A stretch of 64,000 bases of DNA from contig JAFQSY010000039.1 in NCBI GenBank assembly GCA_017409265.1, positions 1-64,000 of the forward strand, read 5' to 3'. Position numbers and translations under genes: made by a program. Source of the DNA: Clostridia bacterium. Lineage in GTDB: Bacteria; Bacillota; Clostridia; Oscillospirales; Acutalibacteraceae. The notes under the pieces are model-generated. The model ran no database searches, had not been told where the DNA came from, and saw only the letters and a program-made list of their open reading frames with translations. Shown here piece after piece: positions 38,349 to 47,771 of this stretch (position 1 is the first letter of the stretch; each line of letters opens with the position of its first letter).

Positions 38349-39713
38349 TCAGATGAGAAATGCTTTTGCAAGTCCGAAATATATAACGAGGGTTACTATG
38401 TCAACCAGAGTTGCAATCATCGGACCTGCCATTAGTGCGGGGTCGAGCTTAACGATTTTTGCAAAAATCGGCAGTGAACAGCCGATGAGCTTCGCAACAA
38501 CGATTGCACAGAACATTGCGAGCGAAACAACGAGAAACACTTCAAGAGTTCCGTCGGAGAAAAGATACATTCTTATGATGTTGGCAACGCCGAGAACAAG
38601 ACCGCAGATTGATGCAACACGCAGCTCCTTGAAAACGATTTTGAGATAATCCTTTATTTCAATTTCACCAACGGCAAGACCGCGGATGATAAGAGTCGAA
38701 ACCTGGCTGCCTGCGTTACCGCCAGTACCCATGAGCATTGGCATTGACGCTGTCAGGGCAACAAAGCCTGCGAGAAGTGTTTCGTAGCCCTCAATGATTT
38801 TACCTGTAAATGTACCCGAAATCATAAGAATCAGAAGCCAGAGTATTCTGTTGCGGGCAAGCTTGAATACGCCTGTTTTGAGGTATTCGTCGTCAGACGG
38901 AGCAAGCAAAGCCATTTTTTCAAAGTCCTCGGTGGTTTCTTCTTCGATAACGTCAACGATATCGTCAACCGTGATGATGCCGACAAGGCGGTTTTCGTTA
39001 TCGACAACGGGGACACTCAAAAGGTCATACTTTTTAACAACATCAACAACATATTCACGGTCATCAAGGGTGTTGACGGAAATAAGCTGTGCATCATCCT
39101 CCATAATGTCGCTGACAAGCGTGTTCTCATCACAGAGAAGAAGAGAGAGAAGCGGCACGCTGCCGAGGAGGTGATGCTGGCTGTCAATGCAGTAGCAGGT
39201 GTAGACGGTTTCTTTGTCTATGCCTGTTTTTCTTATTTTTTCAATTGCCTGTGCAGCGGTCAGGGATGTGCGCAGATGCACCATCTCGATGGTCATAAGG
39301 CTGCCTGCACAGTCCTCGGGATATTTGAGAAAGCGGTTGATAAGCTTTCTTGTTTCGGGGTCGGAATGCGCAAGAACTCTTGTTACAACGTTTGCGGGAA
39401 CTTCCTCAAGAAAGTCAACTGTATCATCAAGGAACATTTCGTCGAGAAGTCTTTCAAGCTCGGCATCGGTAATCATTCGGACTATATCTGCCTGCGTATC
39501 GGGCTCAAGATAAGAAAAGACTTCGGCTGAAATGTCTTTCGGCAGAATGCGAAAAACGGTAAGCCTGCTTTTATCTGTAAGCTCTTCCATAATCTGCGCC
39601 GTATCAACAACGTTCATTTCAGTAATGATTTCACGCAGAAATGATATTTCTCCTTTTGAAATATGCTCCTTGATCTGCTCAATAAGAGCTTCGTAAATTT
39701 CGTTTATTTCCAA
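38349..39713 (-). CDS. mgtE: Magnesium transporter MgtE
   Basis: A 454-residue Mg2+ channel. Cytosolic N-domain (about 1-125, superhelical repeats such as SYLEPDTQADIVRMI), two CBS domains (about 130-255, ending VGIITVDDIVDVIEEE) and a five-helix pore domain with PMLMGTGGNAGSQVSTLIIRG and DPALMAGPMIATLVDIV, which carries the ion-binding Asp. The longer ATG at 39737 includes the AAAGGAG site, so TTG 39713, 8 bp after it, is the likely start. A promoter and a long untranslated leader lie upstream. Confidence 0.93.
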   Translation of the reverse strand: MEINEIYEALIEQIKEHISKGEISFLREIITEMNVVDTAQIMEELTDKSRLTVFRILPKDISAEVFSYLEPDTQADIVRMITDAELERLLDEMFLDDTVDFLEEVPANVVTRVLAHSDPETRKLINRFLKYPEDCAGSLMTIEMVHLRTSLTAAQAIEKIRKTGIDKETVYTCYCIDSQHHLLGSVPLLSLLLCDENTLVSDIMEDDAQLISVNTLDDREYVVDVVKKYDLLSVPVVDNENRLVGIITVDDIVDVIEEETTEDFEKMALLAPSDDEYLKTGVFKLARNRILWLLILMISGTFTGKIIEGYETLLAGFVALTASMPMLMGTGGNAGSQVSTLIIRGLAVGEIEIKDYLKIVFKELRVASICGLVLGVANIIRMYLFSDGTLEVFLVVSLAMFCAIVVAKLIGCSLPIFAKIVKLDPALMAGPMIATLVDIVTLVIYFGLAKAFLI

Positions 39714-39897
39714 AAAAACATCTCCTTTGCGTAACACCGCAAAGAAGATGCATAAGTCAATATAAGCGATTTAAGGCTAAATCACTCTCGGTAACAGCTC
39801 CGTCAATGCGGCATATTTTTTTGAACTTCTACTTCGGGGGTTGGGTATATCGGAACTGCCCAAGATTTTCACCACTCTTTTTGAAAATTTTTTCTGC
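39714..39897 (-). promoter_or_regulatory. Long structured leader of mgtE
   Basis: From the promoter at 39904-39932 the mgtE transcript should carry about 184 untranslated nucleotides. On the minus strand these contain local hairpins: TTTTC/GAAAA near the start, TTGGG..CCCAA, GATTTA-GCCT-TAAATC, and a final TTTGCG-GTGTTA-CGCAAA whose 3' arm runs into the AAAGGAG ribosome binding site, so folding could hide it. I do not recognise the conserved ends of the M-box (ykoK) Mg2+ riboswitch, nor yybP-ykoY. A metal-sensing RNA is likely by position but unproven. Confidence 0.5.
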
Positions 39898-40145
39898 ATG
39901 TCTATGTTACACCTAAAAACGCATCAAGTCAAGCAAAATCTCAGAAAAATCCGAAATTCAAAAATATTTGACAAAAACAGAGAAAAACAGCGATTAGAGG
40001 GTAAAAACGGGCAAAAACGGGAGAAATCCTAGCATGAATTGCTGCGGATTTTCCGAAAAAGCCAACCTTTTCAGGTTAAGAATTTGCTGTGTTCCTCTTT
40101 AGGGTGAGAGGAGTTTTGAAATTCCTCTCGGAAAGGAGTGGTTGG
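39738..40145. other. Gap between mgtE and phage head module
   Basis: No open frame of note. It holds the mgtE leader and promoter (to 39932), an A-rich stretch with a TTGACA at 39968-39973 lacking a good -10, and a short AACCT/AGGTT hairpin at 40064-40077. No integrase, repressor or obvious att repeat is visible at this left edge of the phage-derived module. Confidence 0.6.
39904..39932 (-). promoter_or_regulatory. Sigma-A promoter of mgtE
   Basis: Minus strand TTGACT (39932-39927), 17-bp spacer, TAACAT (39909-39904), giving a transcript start near 39897. Confidence 0.75.
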
Positions 40146-40625
40146 TTGCCGAAAAAATTAACCGAAAAAGAAAAGCTGTTCTGCCTGTATTATGCGCAGG
40201 GCGGCGATGCAAGAGGCTGTGCGGCAAGGGCAGGCTTTTCCCTGACTCCGCAGCGAAGTGCGGCGAGGCTTCTTGCAAGGAACGAGGTCAGAGATGAGAT
40301 TGAAAAAATTGAAAAAGAGAGAAAAACGGCATATGCCGCCGAAAGAGGGCTTCACCGCCTTGCGTTCGGGTCAGTCACCGATGCTCTTAAGCTGATGTTT
40401 TGCGAGGAAACGATGAGTGCTGAAGAAATTGAAAAGCTTGATTTCTTTAATGTTTCCGAAATAAAGCGTCCCAAGGGCGGAGGGCTCGAAATCAAGTTCT
40501 TTGACAGACTCAAGGCTCTTGAACGGCTTGAAAAGCTTGTGCCATGCGCAGATAATCCGCAGAGCAGCTTTATTCAGGCTCTTTCGGAGGGTGCAAAAAT
40601 GCTTTCAAGGGAGGATGATGAGTGA
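40146..40625 (+). CDS. Phage terminase small subunit
   Basis: A 159-residue DNA-recognition subunit of a packaging motor. The N-terminus PKKLTEKEKLFCLYY and RGCAARAGFSLTPQRSAARLLARNEVRDEI form the helix-turn-helix region of TerS proteins of the XtmA/terminase_2 type; a coiled-coil (IEKIEKERK) and oligomerisation part follow. Start TTG 40146 is chosen because GAAAGGAG ends 7 bp upstream; longer frames read through this site. First gene of the head module; its stop overlaps the TerL start (GTGA). Confidence 0.85.
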   Translation: MPKKLTEKEKLFCLYYAQGGDARGCAARAGFSLTPQRSAARLLARNEVRDEIEKIEKERKTAYAAERGLHRLAFGSVTDALKLMFCEETMSAEEIEKLDFFNVSEIKRPKGGGLEIKFFDRLKALERLEKLVPCADNPQSSFIQALSEGAKMLSREDDE

Positions 40626-41914
40626 GCAAGTCCGATAAAAAGCAAGGTTTTGCTCCGTTTTCCGAAAAACAGATGAAAGCGCTGTGCTGGTGGCTGCCGC
40701 AAAGCCCGATGAGCGGATATGATGCAATAATCTGCGACGGTGCCGTTCGTTCGGGAAAAACACTTTGCATGTCCGTTTCATTTATAGCATGGGCATTTTC
40801 TGCTTTTTCTGACCGTTCCTTTGCTCTTTGCGGAAAAACGATTTCTTCTCTGCGCCGCAATGTTGTGACAGTTATTCTGCCTGTTTTGCGGGAGCTTGGT
40901 TTTGAATGCAACGAAAAGCATTCAAAAAACCTCATTGAGATTTCCTATGGCGGAGCAACAAATCGCTTCTATCTTTTCGGCGGCAAGGATGAGGGTTCTG
41001 CTGCTCTTATTCAGGGCATGACTCTTGCAGGTGTTCTTCTTGATGAAGTAACGCTGATGCCGCGTTCCTTTGTTGAGCAGGCGCTTGCAAGATGCTCCGT
41101 TGAGGGCTCGAAGCTCTGGTTTAACTGCAATCCCGAGTATCCCATGCATTGGTTCCATGAGGAATGGATAAAGAAAAGAGAAGAGAAAAACTGTTATTAT
41201 CTTCATTTCACCATGAAAGATAATCCGTCACTTACACCTGCTATTATCCGAAGATACGAAAAGCTTTATTCGGGCGCATTTTATGAGCGCTTCGTTCTTG
41301 GCAAATGGGTGGCGGCGCAGGGCTGTGTTTACCCGATGTTTTCGCAGGAAAAGCATGTGGTTCACCCTCCCGAATGCTTTGAGAAATACTATATTTCGTG
41401 CGATTACGGAACGGTGAACCCCTCGTCATTCGGCTTGTGGGGCGAAAACGGCGGAAAGTGGTACAGAATCAGAGAGTATTATTTTGATTCCCGTGCCGAG
41501 GGCAGGCAGAAAACCGACAGCGAGCATTATTCTTCGCTCTGTGAGCTTGCGGAAGGACTGCGGATTGAATCGGTCATTGTTGACCCGTCGGCGGCAAGCT
41601 TTATGGAATGCATAAGGCGTGACGGAAAATTCAAGGTTATTCCCGCAAAGAATGATGTCATTGACGGAATAAGACGGGTTTCCGACTGCCTGAAAGACGG
41701 GAAAATTCTCTTTTCATCCGAATGCAGGGCATCAATCAGGGAGTTTGGACTTTACAGATGGGAGAGCAGTTCATCAAAGGATGCTGTACGGAAAGAAAAT
41801 GACCACGCAATGGACGATATCCGTTATTTTGTTTCAACTGTTTTAACACAGGATGACGATATCGGATTCTTCGCCCTTGCAGCAGAAAGGAGGGGAAAAC
41901 ATGGGATTATTTAA
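40622..41914 (+). CDS. Phage terminase large subunit
   Basis: A 430-residue DNA packaging ATPase/nuclease. ATPase domain: Walker A-like DGAVRSGKT (about 41-49) and Walker B-like GVLLDEVTLM (about 138-147), then a coupling segment FNCNPEYPMHWF. Nuclease domain: ISCDYGTVNPSSFGLWG (first acidic residue), VIVDPSAAS and a late NDHAMDDIRY, so metal-binding Asp residues look intact. PBSX-type terminase. GTG start overlapping terS; its end overlaps the portal gene. Confidence 0.92.
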   Translation: MSKSDKKQGFAPFSEKQMKALCWWLPQSPMSGYDAIICDGAVRSGKTLCMSVSFIAWAFSAFSDRSFALCGKTISSLRRNVVTVILPVLRELGFECNEKHSKNLIEISYGGATNRFYLFGGKDEGSAALIQGMTLAGVLLDEVTLMPRSFVEQALARCSVEGSKLWFNCNPEYPMHWFHEEWIKKREEKNCYYLHFTMKDNPSLTPAIIRRYEKLYSGAFYERFVLGKWVAAQGCVYPMFSQEKHVVHPPECFEKYYISCDYGTVNPSSFGLWGENGGKWYRIREYYFDSRAEGRQKTDSEHYSSLCELAEGLRIESVIVDPSAASFMECIRRDGKFKVIPAKNDVIDGIRRVSDCLKDGKILFSSECRASIREFGLYRWESSSSKDAVRKENDHAMDDIRYFVSTVLTQDDDIGFFALAAERRGKHGII

Positions 41915-43031
41915 AAACCGAAAAGCTTCAAGAGTATCCGCACCTGTAACGCAAAACAAAAACAGACATCCTTTCGGAATCCTTGACGGCTATGTACCGC
42001 TGGGAGTGCCTCAGATGAGGCTTTATCTTGCGCTCCGTGAGGCTGTGCCTGTTATTGATGCGGCGATATTCAAGATTGTCCGTCTGACGGGCGGATTCAG
42101 AATCGAATGTACGGATTCTGCGGCTCAGGCGGCAATTAATGATTTTGTTGAAACCGTCCCCGTCGGCGGTAACAGGCAGGGTCTTTATGCCTTTGTTTCA
42201 ACTTATTTTGAGCAACTTCTGACTTGTGGAACCGCTATCGGCGAAATTGTGACGGATACCGAAGGCATTCCCCGTGCGCTTTTCAATTCTCCGCTTGAAA
42301 ACATTGAACTGAAAAGGCATAAAAACGGCTTTGACGTTGATATTTTTGTCAGAAACGGTGCGGAGCTCCGCAGGGTTACAAGACCAGAAATGTGCCTTTT
42401 AAGCGTGCTCAATCCCGATCCCGGAGCGCTTACGGGCAATTCAATGCTCAAGGGTCTGCCGTTTGTCAGCTCCGTTTTGCTCAAGATTTTCGAAAGCATT
42501 GGTGCGAATTGGGAAAGGGTCGGCAATCTTCGCTTTGCCGTTACCTATAACCCTAAAAATGATGCGGTTGACAGAGCATATGCAAAGGACAGAGCATTGC
42601 AGGTTGCAAAAGAGTGGGGAGAGGCGATGCAGAATGGCTCGGAAATCAGGGATTTTGTTGCTGTCGGCGATGTGCAGATAAAGGTCATCGGCGCAGACAA
42701 TCAGATTCTTGACAGCGAGGTGCCTGTACGCCAGATGCTTGAACAGATTGTCGCAAAAACAGGATTGCCGCCCTTCATGCTCGGTCTTTCATGGTCAAGC
42801 ACGGAGCGCATGTCATCGCAGCAGGCGGATGTGCTCACGAGCGAGCTTGAAGCTTACAGACAGCTTCTTTCGCCCGTTATAAGAAAAATCTGTACGGCGT
42901 TTCTGCGAGGAAACGGCTATCATTGCGGAGTGAAGGTGGTATGGGATGATATCACTCTTCAGGATGAGGTTGAGCAGAGCAGGGCGATGCTTTACAGAGC
43001 GCAGGCAGAAAAAATCAAAAGAGGTGAATAA
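41901..43031 (+). CDS. Phage portal protein
   Basis: A 376-residue protein with the outline of a siphophage portal, the dodecameric DNA entry ring at one capsid vertex. Visible: LREAVPVIDAAIFKIVRLTGG at the start, a wing region with GNSMLKGLPFVSSVLLKIFES, and LPPFMLGLSWSSTERMSSQQAD near residue 300. AAAGGAGGGG precedes ATG 41901, which lies inside the end of terL. Complete length for a compact portal. Confidence 0.87.
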   Translation: MGLFKNRKASRVSAPVTQNKNRHPFGILDGYVPLGVPQMRLYLALREAVPVIDAAIFKIVRLTGGFRIECTDSAAQAAINDFVETVPVGGNRQGLYAFVSTYFEQLLTCGTAIGEIVTDTEGIPRALFNSPLENIELKRHKNGFDVDIFVRNGAELRRVTRPEMCLLSVLNPDPGALTGNSMLKGLPFVSSVLLKIFESIGANWERVGNLRFAVTYNPKNDAVDRAYAKDRALQVAKEWGEAMQNGSEIRDFVAVGDVQIKVIGADNQILDSEVPVRQMLEQIVAKTGLPPFMLGLSWSSTERMSSQQADVLTSELEAYRQLLSPVIRKICTAFLRGNGYHCGVKVVWDDITLQDEVEQSRAMLYRAQAEKIKRGE

Positions 43032-43057
43032 TTACGGAAGGAAACAAAGTCAGTCAG

Positions 43058-43891
43058 TTGCCCGAAAATGAGCTTGAGCTCATCGGGCAGTTTGCAAGAA
43101 AAAAGCTCTCAAGCGAAGAGCTTTACACGTTTTCGCTTATTCTCTGCGATAACGAAATCGACAGGGATAACGAAAGATTTACGGTTTCCGCTCTCCATGA
43201 GCTTGCGAAGCTTTTTGTCGGCAAAACGGGAATTTTTGACCACAACATGAAGAGTAAAGATCAGACGGCGAGAATTTATATGGCACAGGTTGTTAGCGAT
43301 TCAAGCCGAAAAACCGCAGACGGTGAGGACTATACGTACATTCAGGCGAAAGCATATATGGTCAGAACCGAAAAGAATAAGGACCTTATTGCAGAGATTG
43401 ATGCAGGTATCAAAAAAGAAACCAGCGTCGGTTGCTGCGTGAGGGATATCAGCTGTTCAATCTGCGGCAAAAACATCAAAACAGAGGGCTGCGAGCACAA
43501 GAAAGGCAATGTTTACGGCGGAAAACTCTGCTGTTATCTGCTCTCGGAGCCGACAGATGCCTATGAATGGTCGTTTGTCGCAGTCCCTGCACAAAAGAAT
43601 GCAGGGGTTATCAAATCATTCAATCCCTCGCAGGAAAAGGAAAAGCTCGCACAGTGGGCAAAGGAATATACGGATGAGCTCAAGTCGGATATTGTCCGCT
43701 CGGCGGCATCGGTTATCCCTGGTCTTCAGAGCGACTCGCTCGGCGAAATCTGCTCTGCGCTTTCGCTCAAATCTCTCAAGGATTTGCGTGATGCCCTGCG
43801 CATGAGCGCAAAGAAAAATCTGCCTGTTATCAGACAGCTTGAAGTAAACGATGCTGATAACGGCAGCGAAAATTCCGAATATAAAATTTAA
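43058..43891 (+). CDS. Prohead protease-like protein with Cys/His insert
   Basis: A protein of 277 residues in the position of the capsid maturation protease/scaffold. N-terminal part (about 1-185) has FDHN (possible catalytic His), IKKETSVGCCV (possible Ser of an S78-like protease) and WSFVAVPAQKNAG. Between them sits a Cys/His segment CSICGKNIKTEGCEHKKG likely to bind zinc. The C-terminal part (about 195-277) is helical and may be scaffold. TTG 43058 is the first standard start, but AGAGGTGA lies 5-6 bp before an in-frame ATT at 43031, which may be the true, rare start. Confidence 0.72.
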   Translation: MPENELELIGQFARKKLSSEELYTFSLILCDNEIDRDNERFTVSALHELAKLFVGKTGIFDHNMKSKDQTARIYMAQVVSDSSRKTADGEDYTYIQAKAYMVRTEKNKDLIAEIDAGIKKETSVGCCVRDISCSICGKNIKTEGCEHKKGNVYGGKLCCYLLSEPTDAYEWSFVAVPAQKNAGVIKSFNPSQEKEKLAQWAKEYTDELKSDIVRSAASVIPGLQSDSLGEICSALSLKSLKDLRDALRMSAKKNLPVIRQLEVNDADNGSENSEYKI

Positions 43892-43903
43892 GGAGGATTT
43901 ACT

Positions 43904-44242
43904 ATGTCAGTATCATTCTGCGGATTTAACGAGAATACCGCAACATTTAAGTCAAACGAAGAAATCGCAGGCGGCGCAGCCGTCAAGATGAGCGAATCAA
44001 ACACCGTTGCAGCGTGTGAAAACGGTGATGTTTTCTGCGGCTTTGCAGTTGAATGCAGCGGCGGCTATGCATCGGTACAGCTCAGTGGTACGGTTACTGC
44101 GAATTACAGCGGTGCAGCTCCCGAGGTTGGTTATGAAAAGCTTGCATCCGACGGCGAAGGTGTAACCGCATCAGACAGCGGCAGAGAATATCTTGTCATT
44201 GCTGTTGATGAAACTGCAATGACAGTAACATTTCTTATGTAA
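43904..44242 (+). CDS. Capsid decoration-like protein
   Basis: A 112-residue beta-rich protein directly before the major capsid gene, where siphophages encode the head decoration protein. It has a repeated small-residue beta pattern (AGGAAVKMSESNTVAACENG, AVECSGGYASVQLSGTVTANY) typical of such trimeric proteins. No catalytic features. AGGAGG precedes the ATG. The role is inferred from position and fold-like pattern. Confidence 0.65.
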   Translation: MSVSFCGFNENTATFKSNEEIAGGAAVKMSESNTVAACENGDVFCGFAVECSGGYASVQLSGTVTANYSGAAPEVGYEKLASDGEGVTASDSGREYLVIAVDETAMTVTFLM

Positions 44243-44260
44243 GGAAAGGAGATAAAAACA

Positions 44261-45265
44261 ATGGCTAATTTTGATAATATCAAGCTCGAAAAGGGTCTTT
44301 ACGCAACAGGCAACTTTACAAAGGCGCTCGAAAGTATCGACCCTAACGAAAACTACAAGGGTACTTCTCTTGAGGGGCTTGACGCCTATCAGCGTCAGCT
44401 CAAGCGCTTCGGTATCAAGGTAGGCGGACCTTCAAGCGATGTTGTTGACAAGTTCTTCAAAAGCTCCGAAAGCGCCGTGCTCTTCCCCGAATATGTTTCA
44501 AGAGCAGTAAAGCGAGGTCTTGAGCAGGCGGATATTATTTCCGACGTTGTTGCATCAACAACAGTTATTGACGGTCTTGATTACCGCTCAATAAGCTCAA
44601 TTCCTACGGAAGAGGAAAAGGAAATCAAGGTTGTCAAGGAGGGCGCATTCATTCCCGAAACAACCATAAGAACAAAGGAAAATCTTGTGAAGCTCAAGAA
44701 GAGAGGCAGAAGCCTTGTTGCATCATATGAGGCAATCAGATTCCAGCGCCTTGACCTTTTCACCGTCACTCTCCGACAGATCGGCGCTTACATCGCAAGA
44801 ACTCTTCTCAAGGATGCGATTGACGTTCTTGCAAACGGCGACGGTAACGGCAATGCGGCTGAAATCGTGAACTGTGCACAGACGGGAACTCTTACATATG
44901 CCGACCTTGTAAATTTCTGGAACGGCTTTGACCCCTATGAGCTTAACACAATAGTTGCAGACCCCGCCGTTATGGCGCAGATGCTCAATATGGAACAGTT
45001 CAGGGATGCTGCGGCAGGACTTAATTTCCACGGTAAGGGCGATATGATTACACCGCTCGGCGCAAAGCTTCTCAAGTCATCGGCAGTAGGCGAGAACAAG
45101 CTTATCGGTCTTGATAAAACTGCTGCTCTTGAAATGGTCAAGGCAGGCGAAATCATGACTGAATATGACAAGCTTATTGACCGCCAGCTTGAGCGTGCGG
45201 TTATCAGCTGCACGGCAGGTTTTGCAAAGATTTTTGACGGCGCATCAAAGGTGCTTTCCGTCTGA
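44261..45265 (+). CDS. Phage major capsid protein
   Basis: A 334-residue HK97-fold capsid protein. An N-terminal arm (about 1-60) precedes a domain with LFPEYVSRAVKRGLEQADII (spine helix region), IPTEEEKEIKVVKEGAFIPE (E-loop-like), LARTLLKDAIDVLANG, and the A-domain segment NTIVADPAVMAQMLNMEQF with LIGLDKTAALEM. AAAGGAG precedes the ATG. Full length, no truncation. Together with terminase and portal it would allow assembly of a DNA-filled head. Confidence 0.87.
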   Translation: MANFDNIKLEKGLYATGNFTKALESIDPNENYKGTSLEGLDAYQRQLKRFGIKVGGPSSDVVDKFFKSSESAVLFPEYVSRAVKRGLEQADIISDVVASTTVIDGLDYRSISSIPTEEEKEIKVVKEGAFIPETTIRTKENLVKLKKRGRSLVASYEAIRFQRLDLFTVTLRQIGAYIARTLLKDAIDVLANGDGNGNAAEIVNCAQTGTLTYADLVNFWNGFDPYELNTIVADPAVMAQMLNMEQFRDAAAGLNFHGKGDMITPLGAKLLKSSAVGENKLIGLDKTAALEMVKAGEIMTEYDKLIDRQLERAVISCTAGFAKIFDGASKVLSV

Positions 45266-45279
45266 CGGGAGGTGAGGGC

Positions 45280-45645
45280 ATGATTGATTGCCTGAATGTT
45301 TTATCCGCGCTTCGCGAATATTATTCTCCCGAGGGTACGGATGAGGAGCTTGCTCCTGTTTGCACCCTGACGATTGATGAGCTTTTACCTAGGGTAAAAT
45401 CCGAGGAAGTGCATTCCGACGGACGTCTTATAAGCCTTGCGGCGGCAATGGTCAATTACCGCCTCTGCGCAAAGAAAGCGGCAAATTCGGACGGTGTAAC
45501 ATCCTTTAAGGCAGGCGATGTTACTGTGAGTATTTCACCGTCGGTATTGCTTGAACGTGCGGAAAAAGAGAAAAACTCCGCTCTTCTTGCGGCACTCCCG
45601 CTCTTAAAGGATGAGGAGTTTGTTTTCAGGCAGGTGAGTCTATGA
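45280..45645 (+). CDS. Head-tail connector-like protein
   Basis: A 121-residue helical protein right after the capsid gene, the usual place of the adaptor (HK97 gp6-like) that docks beneath the portal. It starts MIDCLNVLSALREYY and contains LISLAAAMVNYRLCAKKA. GGGAGGTGAG precedes the ATG. Stop overlaps the next start (ATGA). Function inferred from gene order, length and helical make-up. Confidence 0.65.
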   Translation: MIDCLNVLSALREYYSPEGTDEELAPVCTLTIDELLPRVKSEEVHSDGRLISLAAAMVNYRLCAKKAANSDGVTSFKAGDVTVSISPSVLLERAEKEKNSALLAALPLLKDEEFVFRQVSL

Positions 45646-45974
45646 ACATGACCGCTGTTTTCGGTTCTTACGGCAGACCTGCATCGTTTTCATCAAAAAG
45701 CGGAGAAAAGCTTGCCGAAATGAGTGCGTTTATAAGCCCTTTAAGATATAAAAACAAGATGTATCTTTACGGCGTGAATACGGAAATCGGTTATAATTCG
45801 CAGGGACATTATCTTTATATCGGCCCTCCGAATCCCGACCTTACTGCCGCCGAAGAGGGCGCCTATATTACCTGCATGGGTGAAAAATACAGAATTGACA
45901 GAGCTGAAAAGGTCTATAAAGGGAATGATGTGTTCTATATATGGGCGATTATCAGAGTTATTGTTGAGATTTGA
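45642..45974 (+). CDS. Head-closure-like protein
   Basis: A 110-residue beta-rich protein in the head-closure (stopper) position. It contains MYLYGVNTEIGYNSQGHYLY and ITCMGEKYRIDRAEKVYKGND, which fits small beta-barrel head-completion proteins. CAGGTGAG precedes the ATG that overlaps the preceding stop. Assignment is by synteny. Confidence 0.55.
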   Translation: MNMTAVFGSYGRPASFSSKSGEKLAEMSAFISPLRYKNKMYLYGVNTEIGYNSQGHYLYIGPPNPDLTAAEEGAYITCMGEKYRIDRAEKVYKGNDVFYIWAIIRVIVEI

Positions 45975-45987
45975 AGAGGTGTGATTC

Positions 45988-46830
45988 ATGAGTGAAATAA
46001 GCGCGTTGCCGTCAAATATCGTTGAGTGGCTTAAAGGGAGAGAAGAACTTTCCGAAATCAAGTTTCTCACCGAATTTCCGGCAATAAAAAAAGCCGTGCC
46101 GCTCAAAAACACAACGGTTGCGGTGGGAATTGAAAGCATGGAGATTGTTGATTCTTTTACGGAAAACGATGAAGGTGTTCTTGTTGAAAACGAATATTGC
46201 AGGCAGGCAAAAATAAAGCTCCGCCTGTCGATTCACGCGCCATATTCTTCGGGCGGTGAAGCCTGCCACGATGCGTTTACGGATATTATTGATTGCTTAA
46301 CCTTTGCTTCGGGACTTGATATTCTGACCTCGGGCTGTGAAGGAATTGTTTCGGACAGAGATACCGATGCCTTTGTATTAAGTGCATGGGCAACGGTTAA
46401 TGCCTCTCTCTGTCCTGCGACAAGTTCAAGCCTTGATTTTCCGTCGTTTATCAGCAAAGAACTGCTCTGCGGCTCGCACATAAACGATGCGAACATTCAT
46501 CTTTCCGAAGAACAGCAGACCTTTCTCAACACGCCTTTTGTTACCGGCTCATATCTCGGAACAGGCACAAGCGCAAGAAGCGTTTCTCTCGGATTCAAGC
46601 CGAGTGTTGTTATTGTTCTCGGCTATGATTTGCCGATGATTTATTATGATTCGGCGGCAAGCAAATATTATGCCATGGCAGCTGTCGGACTGCCGAAGGG
46701 CGGAACAATCGGAATAGAGGTTACTTCAACGGGATTCAAGGCAAAAAGCAGCGAATCCGTAACCGCGAGAAACTGTTCGCCATTGCTCAACGAGGCAGGT
46801 ACAACTTATTACTACATAGCTTTCAGATAA
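45988..46830 (+). CDS. Tail-terminator-like domain fused to fibre-like domain
   Basis: A 280-residue two-part protein. Residues about 1-160 look like a neck/tail-completion protein (VAVGIESMEIVDSF, AKIKLRLSIHAPYSSGGEACHDAFTDI), fitting its place after the head-closure gene. Residues about 185-280 (FVTGSYLGTGTSARSVSLGF, PSVVIVLG, ending TTYYYIAFR) resemble a repeated beta domain found near the ends of tail fibres and other surface phage proteins. The fusion and its place as the last gene before a terminator are unusual, because tail tube and tape-measure genes normally follow. AGAGGTG precedes the ATG. Confidence 0.6.
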   Translation: MSEISALPSNIVEWLKGREELSEIKFLTEFPAIKKAVPLKNTTVAVGIESMEIVDSFTENDEGVLVENEYCRQAKIKLRLSIHAPYSSGGEACHDAFTDIIDCLTFASGLDILTSGCEGIVSDRDTDAFVLSAWATVNASLCPATSSSLDFPSFISKELLCGSHINDANIHLSEEQQTFLNTPFVTGSYLGTGTSARSVSLGFKPSVVIVLGYDLPMIYYDSAASKYYAMAAVGLPKGGTIGIEVTSTGFKAKSSESVTARNCSPLLNEAGTTYYYIAFR

Positions 46831-46835
46831 AAACA

Positions 46836-46865
46836 GCCCCGAATCTGCAAATACAGGTTCGGGGC
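46836..46865. terminator. Bidirectional terminator ending phage module
   Basis: GCCCCGAATCTG, loop CAAATA, CAGGTTCGGGGC: 12 bp with one G-T wobble, between the last phage gene and the convergent deacetylase gene. Confidence 0.85.
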
Positions 46866-46871
46866 GATTGA

Positions 46872-47771
46872 TTATTTTCTCATTTCAGCAAGGTCACGGT
46901 AGTTGATAAGCTTGATACCGTGAGCTTCGATATGCTGTCTTGTCTGCGGGTCGTTCATGATTTTGTATTCCCATACTCTGCGTTCCCATGCGCCTGTTGT
47001 GCCCTTAAGGTCGTCAGTTTCGATTGAAGGGTGGAGATAGGTTTCTGTGATGCCGTTGGGAATGTTTGCGTAGAGATTGTAGAGATATTCCTTGAAATTC
47101 TCGTAGCTTTCGTCCTGAGGACCGCCCCATTCATTGGGAATGAGATAGTCGGGGATTGCAACACCGTTTGCCTTTGCAAATTCAACGATTTTTCCGAACA
47201 CCATGTCGATAAGGCTCTTGTCAACATTAATGTCGAGCATTGAATTGCCGAGCATTTCGTCGGTGAATGTGCCCGGCATGCGGAACGGAAGTCCGTATTC
47301 GCCTGCGAGAGCGAGTGTTGTCTGAAGAAGCTCAAACCTGCCGGTTTCAATGCCGTAAAGCGAGCCCATGTGGTTATCAAGATGCGACGGATTGGTAAGA
47401 CCGAGCTTTTTGCAACGCTCAATCTGTGCTCTGATTTCGCCTTCAACTTCGTCAATGTCAACATTCTTTTCAACCTGATCGCTTTCATGCCACATGAAGC
47501 CCTCTTCGTCACGAAGAGAATCTGTGTTGCTTGAATTTACGGGTGCCCAGCGGTATTTTGACCACTCGCTGGTGAGTGTGAGATGAACACCGATTGCAAA
47601 CTGCGGATTTTCGCCTGCAAATTTACATGCTTCGGGTGCCCACGCGCAGGGAGTCATGACTGTTGAAGAAGTAAGTGCGCTTTTTTCGTTCTTGAAAAGC
47701 TCCATTACTGCGAGGTTTGCTCCTCTGCACATGCCGAAATCGTCTGCGTTGATAATGAGATATCTGTCCAT
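46872..47771 (-). CDS. ChbG/YdjC carbohydrate deacetylase
   Basis: A 299-residue YdjC-family protein that removes acetyl groups from N-acetylated oligosaccharides such as diacetylchitobiose. Motifs: LIINADDFGMCRGAN (metal Asp), FAIGVHLTLTSEW (metal His) and NPSHLDNHMGSLYG (His), forming the Mg/Zn site. No signal peptide. It lies just downstream of the GH92 gene on the same strand, so the pair may process host N-glycans: mannose removal and handling of the GlcNAc core. That link is inference. Confidence 0.88.
   Translation of the reverse strand: MDRYLIINADDFGMCRGANLAVMELFKNEKSALTSSTVMTPCAWAPEACKFAGENPQFAIGVHLTLTSEWSKYRWAPVNSSNTDSLRDEEGFMWHESDQVEKNVDIDEVEGEIRAQIERCKKLGLTNPSHLDNHMGSLYGIETGRFELLQTTLALAGEYGLPFRMPGTFTDEMLGNSMLDINVDKSLIDMVFGKIVEFAKANGVAIPDYLIPNEWGGPQDESYENFKEYLYNLYANIPNGITETYLHPSIETDDLKGTTGAWERRVWEYKIMNDPQTRQHIEAHGIKLINYRDLAEMRK

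Follow-up and report, generated by a model that had tools for sequence, protein, structure and literature searches.

We analysed a 64,000-nucleotide stretch of a Clostridia bacterium genome (Oscillospirales, Acutalibacteraceae; contig JAFQSY010000039.1, positions 1 to 64,000), hereafter called the window, which carries a compact block of phage head genes at 40146-46830. Gene content, conservation and the arrangement of related loci lead us to consider, with somewhat better than even confidence, that this block is a host-owned, mostly vertically inherited, tail-reduced descendant of an element resembling gene transfer agents (GTAs) that is spread across much of the order. Nine open, tightly packed + strand open reading frames (ORFs) fill the interval between mgtE and ydjC, both of which run leftward, in agreement with the initial annotation of nine tightly packed, full-length genes. 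Loci of the same genus contain these genes in identical order, up to wherever the contig ends, and the block is therefore not a chance arrangement.

The block opens with the terminase small subunit (TerS, 40146..40625, TTG start; PF03592, 1.5e-13, and phrog_51) and large subunit (TerL, 40622..41914; PF03237, 2e-16, and phrog_2, 4.9e-48). These are followed by the portal (41901..43031; phrog_30703, 2.3e-129, 432 bits), a probable prohead protease (43058..43891, TTG start; phrog_16951, 1.4e-98), a probable decoration protein (43904..44242; phrog_4588, virion structural protein, 7.2e-24) and the HK97-type major capsid protein (44261..45265; phrog_3922, major head protein, 1.4e-100, and PF25209, 4.5e-15). 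Pfam and PHROGs supported the labels initially given to TerS, TerL, portal, capsid and, as a virion protein in the decoration position, the fifth gene, but the protease and the small connectors fell in no named family. As phrog_16951 has no named function, the protease label combines this match and the position of the gene with what we take to be protease motifs. The portal family and the capsid have one match each in the window's genome. Tail families were not detected in the block with Pfam, PHROGs or profile searches, and the block and the scanned flank genes contained none of the tail, lysis and integration modules that would mark an intact prophage.

The last three genes had been described as connector-type proteins. 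This holds by position for c7 (45280..45645, head-tail adaptor type, without Pfam or PHROG match) and c8 (45642..45974, stopper type, without clear family but with relatives in both tailed and tailless loci). The third, c9, is not merely a connector, a point overlooked in the initial annotation. It possesses the tail-terminator fold, and its terminator (neck) domain (residues 1-142, 45988..46413) is fused to a tail-fibre-type beta domain (residues 164-280, 46477..46830). The C-terminal domain corresponds to a separate terminal gene in tailed relatives, with blastp matches to these stand-alone genes of up to 3e-16. AlphaFold2 modelled it with a pLDDT of 91, and its matches in BFVD include tail fibre proteins (best 2.2e-5); searched alone against PDB, it gave no significant match (best E 0.05). 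The fusion is present in 27 of the 29 carriers in the genus, the remaining two stopping at contig edges, and is found in the window's genus and in one of the two sister genera without a baseplate. The C-terminal part of c9 looks like a former tail-tip binding domain.

Purifying selection acts on all nine genes. In ten close pairs, the median ratios of nonsynonymous to synonymous substitution rates (dN/dS), rough values because many dS were near 1, were 0.046 for the capsid, 0.055 for TerL, 0.062 for the portal, 0.080 for the protease, 0.094 for c8, 0.117 for c7, 0.121 for TerS, 0.124 for c9 and 0.202 for the decoration protein, and seven flanking host genes gave 0.014-0.143 for comparison. The initial annotation had proposed this measurement for capsid and terminase, and had argued from intact terminase and capsid motifs against simple decay. 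The low ratios sustain that argument, as does the invariance in 54/54 copies of the key TerL residues, to which we presume Walker and nuclease roles. In the 34 genus-level loci, short or missing genes were accounted for by contig ends, three partial TerS matches limited to the C-terminal part, and two decoration genes that seemed to be missing and were recovered by profile search. Judged from these comparisons, the head, packaging and neck genes are retained by purifying selection, as would be expected of a GTA.

Tail genes were also sought elsewhere in the genomes. A Baseplate_J profile matched 9/9 tailed positive controls but 0/37 genomes of the genus and 0/8 intact head-only genomes of the two sister genera, although this profile would miss unlike tails. 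One weak match (1.3e-11) came from G429, whose block is fragmentary. The tape-measure family PhageMin_Tail matched 3/37 genomes of the genus, one of which carries the block, and gave no match in 28/29 block-carrying genomes.

Relatives in which the head genes are joined to tail genes occur in the same family. Loci were fetched for all 34 genomes of other genera with a capsid match, a second match in G346 that lies apart from these genes being left out. They comprised 24 loci with head and baseplate, eight with a head only, and two that were cut or fragmentary (G283 and G429). Tailed clusters such as L117, L113 and L140 share with the window homologous TerS, TerL, portal, protease, decoration, capsid, connector and neck genes. 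Unlike the window block, they add a LysM protein, a hub, a spike-like protein, a gp25-like protein and Baseplate_J (24/24 each), Gp48 (23/24) and often a separate fibre gene (a small terminal one was recognised in 16/24); a sheath was found in 1/24. Pfam and PHROGs together confirmed the LysM protein, hub, sheath initiator/gp25, Baseplate_J (5e-48) and Gp48 in L117, and the sheath in L140. Concerning other families, 24 loci were fetched out of 36 genomes with a match, and these contained a sheath in 16/24 and Baseplate_J in 13/24. Three loci from another family of the order (L142, L169 and L170) hold a shorter, more divergent version, with TerS to c7 and a hub-like gene in about 7 kb, beside which Baseplate_J was not found.

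A tidy series of successive tail losses was considered and set aside, as the pattern is irregular. Tube and neck profiles each recognised 10/24 tailed family loci, and intervals with too little room for a tube are not confined to the sister genus but recur in several tailed genera. In the tailed clusters whose ORFs were listed, no ORF of tape-measure size was seen. PhageMin_Tail matches in G225 and G346 lay on other contigs, and G308 and G423 gave none. The baseplate is absent from three genera, the window's own and two sisters, and since all of them share this absence, the tail loss is not recent. The domestication proposed in the initial annotation was to fall if close relatives had the block within complete tailed prophages, with the rest recently deleted here. 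The block is indeed joined to baseplate genes in relatives, but beyond these clusters the neighbours are usually host-like, as judged from ORF lists and not family by family.

We then considered how the element is distributed. Among 60 genomes, a capsid search gave one match each in the window's genome, 28/36 species of the same genus and 1/23 genomes of other families. A profile built from 17 capsids matched 71/394 genomes of the order, consisting of the window's own, 34/42 family genomes of other genera and 36 genomes of other families. Two matches each came from G346 and G429, with only fragments in the latter; in this sister-genus genome the first 57 capsid residues lie at the ends of two contigs (L162 and L163), which may reflect an assembly break, a duplication or an insertion. 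A class-wide draw gave 7/321, among which two from outside the order scored more weakly (3e-55 and 5e-27). Judging by these draws, the element belongs chiefly to one order.

Once duplicates had been removed, 18 further fetched loci of close species had mgtE adjoining the block, and ydjC and GH92 often occupied its other side; in more distant members the flanks differ. Trees built by a quick method, with 57 rows for the block and 46 for SecY, had 15/34 splits in common (shuffle mean 0.17, maximum 2), and 6/14 within the genus (shuffle maximum 2). Overall, block and SecY distances correlated with a rho of 0.74, and 0/1000 permutations were as high. Inheritance of the block is thus mostly vertical, and, apart from a weak distance correlation at the genus level, the phage-derived structural genes appear fixed in the chromosome, as in GTAs. 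Conserved across species, under purifying selection and often at one chromosomal site, the block conforms to the domesticated head module first suggested. In the genomes without a capsid match, seven of eight have an mgtE 58-61% identical to that of the window and G032 has none. Five block carriers likewise show only this type of copy, and we therefore did not read a clean empty site.

The conservation of terminase and portal points to DNA packaging. Upon induction, the terminase would fill an icosahedral head with chromosomal DNA, and the portal, adaptor and stopper would close the filled head. A ring of c9 terminators would then cap the neck and display the fibre domains directly, resulting in a tailless, DNA-filled particle able to bind a surface. 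We tentatively propose, with rather less than even confidence, that such a particle acts as a tail-free GTA, from which the baseplate was removed while the tail-tip binding domain moved to the neck ring, allowing the head to dock on a recipient. The DNA might pass straight out of the portal with no tail involved, or it might be set free at the surface and taken up through competence.

Several points weigh against a GTA-like descendant. Inside the genus, the distance correlation between block and SecY is weak (rho 0.25, with 106/1000 permutations as high). The 8/36 genus relatives without a capsid match are scattered on the SecY tree, requiring six changes, and the block is consequently dispensable or was overlooked in incomplete assemblies; the scatter is compatible with repeated losses or with gaps in the assemblies. 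Lysis genes were not seen next to the block, a GTA entirely devoid of tail genes would be out of the ordinary, and a GTA-like particle of this lineage is so far a prediction from its genes. Finally, a faecal scaffold carrying a related block, MT835508, is not specific evidence for packaging. Around its head-only block it resembles ordinary chromosome, with ribosomal protein genes, and it was not counted because similar records match much bacterial chromosome. Three 8-kb chromosome stretches of a sister genus matched 33 records (30 labelled 'Bacteriophage sp.'), 13 records (all so labelled) and 25 records (20 so labelled); the best places were at 60-80% identity in 69/71 cases and at 80-90% in two, and SecY was found in three of these scaffolds.

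Related capsids occur in seven records of the phage collection, of which five are human faecal scaffolds (MT835508, MT836604, MT835952, MT835769 and MT838993) and two belong to Caulobacter phage Seuss (28%). The five probably come from a study of DNase-treated particles (PMC8361208). Many MT83xxxx 'Bacteriophage sp.' faecal scaffolds resemble bacterial chromosome, 30 of them matching one 8-kb host stretch with glycogen-type genes. A 30.8-kb contig in a viral collection (L055; IMG/VR 3300001598_003442) has, for every gene, the same identities to the window block as a host locus (L046), and is probably host chromosome labelled as virus.

Among the alternatives, a capsid kept for another use is rather unlikely but the strongest. 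The head would serve as a tailless compartment that sequesters or destroys DNA, interferes with phages in defence of the cell, or holds host cargo, and no genes would be transferred. An injection tail is indeed missing, the retained fibre domain could be structural, and cells have reused phage capsids in the form of encapsulins. However, encapsulins are HK97-fold shells that lack terminase and portal, whereas the block has both terminase subunits and a portal, and with the key terminase residues conserved, it is packaging itself that seems to be selected. Slightly less probable, and in our opinion unlikely, is a GTA divided over two operons, in which the same head and neck receive a tail and baseplate from an unlinked, unrelated operon of the same genome. 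A terminator domain normally docks the tail tube, and c9 has retained this fold. There is also a precedent, as FpGTA I and II are described about 125 kb apart in one strain (PMC12946183). The Baseplate_J result (0/37) argues against such a division, as do the single PhageMin_Tail match among the 29 carriers, with tails of other types not searched for, and the fusion of the fibre domain to the neck in all carriers but the two that are cut off.

The two remaining explanations were rejected. The missing tail and the eight relatives without a match might suggest a slowly decaying prophage remnant, but the selection signal contradicts this: median dN/dS of 0.05-0.20 at dS often near 1, invariant terminase residues, and gene defects in genus-level loci that trace to contig ends, partial TerS matches and decoration genes found by profile leave decay very improbable. 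A capsid-forming satellite taking tails from helper phages, one of three options offered in the initial annotation, would account for a locus with head genes only, and the terminator could accept foreign tails. In capsid-forming satellites (capsid-forming phage-inducible chromosomal islands, cf-PICI), an integrase and the element's own regulatory or replication genes adjoin the head genes. Here, no integrase was found among the flank genes scanned with Pfam, genomes of the genus gave a single capsid match each, and 28/29 carriers lacked a tape-measure match. Taking into account also the Baseplate_J searches, the splits in common with SecY and the recurrent mgtE junction, we regard a borrowed-tail satellite as the least credible explanation. 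The other two options, a GTA-like or a tailless particle, are favoured.

The host genes on both sides were confirmed with Pfam. To the left is the MgtE magnesium transporter (38349..39710, - strand; PF01769, 4.3e-39), and to the right are YdjC (46872..47771, - strand; PF04794, 1.3e-56) and GH92. Of six further flank genes scanned, five belonged to host-type families (carboxylase, tRNA synthetase, lipase, kinase-PASTA and GlgB-type, all farther out) and one had no Pfam match. Replication and integration genes are accordingly absent beside the structural genes, as in a GTA, in flanks that are host-type except for that one ORF. The strong terminator noted after the last gene is confirmed in part, as an unstranded, terminator-like hairpin between the convergent genes (46836..46865) with a 12-pair GC-rich stem, but its T tail is weak.

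Upstream of TerS, a 5' leader (40046..40145, + strand) contains two covarying hairpins, the second ending directly upstream of the ribosome-binding site. A covariance model (R2), in which the window leader is itself included, matches 40046-40148. In the leader alignment 84.6% of the counts were paired, with 34 double-change cells against a shuffle mean of 11.2. An earlier model with an automatic structure kept four pairs and was not used, and for the leader no Rfam family passed the threshold. A TTAGG/TATRRGTGARAGG-like motif follows the hairpins, upstream of the ribosome-binding site. In five relatives' loci, the model also matches upstream of two RepA_N, two HTH_36 and one CHC2 zinc-finger genes (E 1.7e-6 to 4.8e-4), with E 1.7e-6 to 6e-6 before RepA_N replication initiator and CHC2 (primase-type) genes. 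A third RepA_N gene gave E 0.02, and weaker matches lie upstream of unrelated genes. This suggests that the leader is a regulatory signal common to mobile elements, maybe a shared regulatory RNA or promoter of those in this group. Such sites in relatives include L249:418-511, L248:2002-2139 and one on the reverse strand of L250. In the gap between mgtE and the leader, about 39832-39880 is strongly conserved when the window is aligned with 13 relatives, and no Rfam match reached the threshold.

GTA genes outside the Alphaproteobacteria are little known, and we found no paper describing this order-wide element in a literature search that fell short of preprints and most subscription journals. 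The order displays several degrees of tail reduction: a sheath together with a baseplate, a baseplate lacking the sheath, and a tailless state in which the neck carries the fused fibre domain. If active, the tailless form would show how little of a phage suffices to package, and perhaps move, DNA. The block and its tailed relatives also provide a testable candidate family for packaging cases that have not been assigned to genes.

Characterised alphaproteobacterial GTAs have a tail for delivery, of which the gene families in the block and the Baseplate_J search (0/37) gave no sign. RcGTA of Rhodobacter (6tba) has a full tail and baseplate, and the window block has neither. PBSX of Bacillus subtilis differs from the block in its complete contractile tail, lysis genes and regulation. 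It resembles our reading of the block in being a chromosomal defective phage that packages host DNA, as also mentioned in PMC12946183. In that paper, Borodovich et al. (2026) report GTA-like packaging in Ruminococcaceae, Oscillospiraceae and Christensenellaceae, with gut viromes showing packaging of apparently random chromosomal DNA, and give a candidate operon in Faecalibacterium only; the authors did not find FpGTA in Gemmiger or Subdoligranulum. None of the genomes searched here was recognised as Faecalibacterium: a probe sequence for that genus matched 0/394 genomes, and with a stretch of Faecalibacterium phage no near-identical prophage turned up in 297 genomes of one family. FpGTA particles are about 40 nm, have no visible tails and contain about 9 kb of DNA (PMC12946183). 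Comparing this description with the genes of the window block, FpGTA I and II differ in that ten genes make up one operon, which includes head scaffolding and some tail components, and a second operon provides baseplate, fibre and lysis genes. They are like the block in belonging to gut Clostridia and in consisting of a host-borne head operon of TerS, TerL, portal and capsid with no replication genes.

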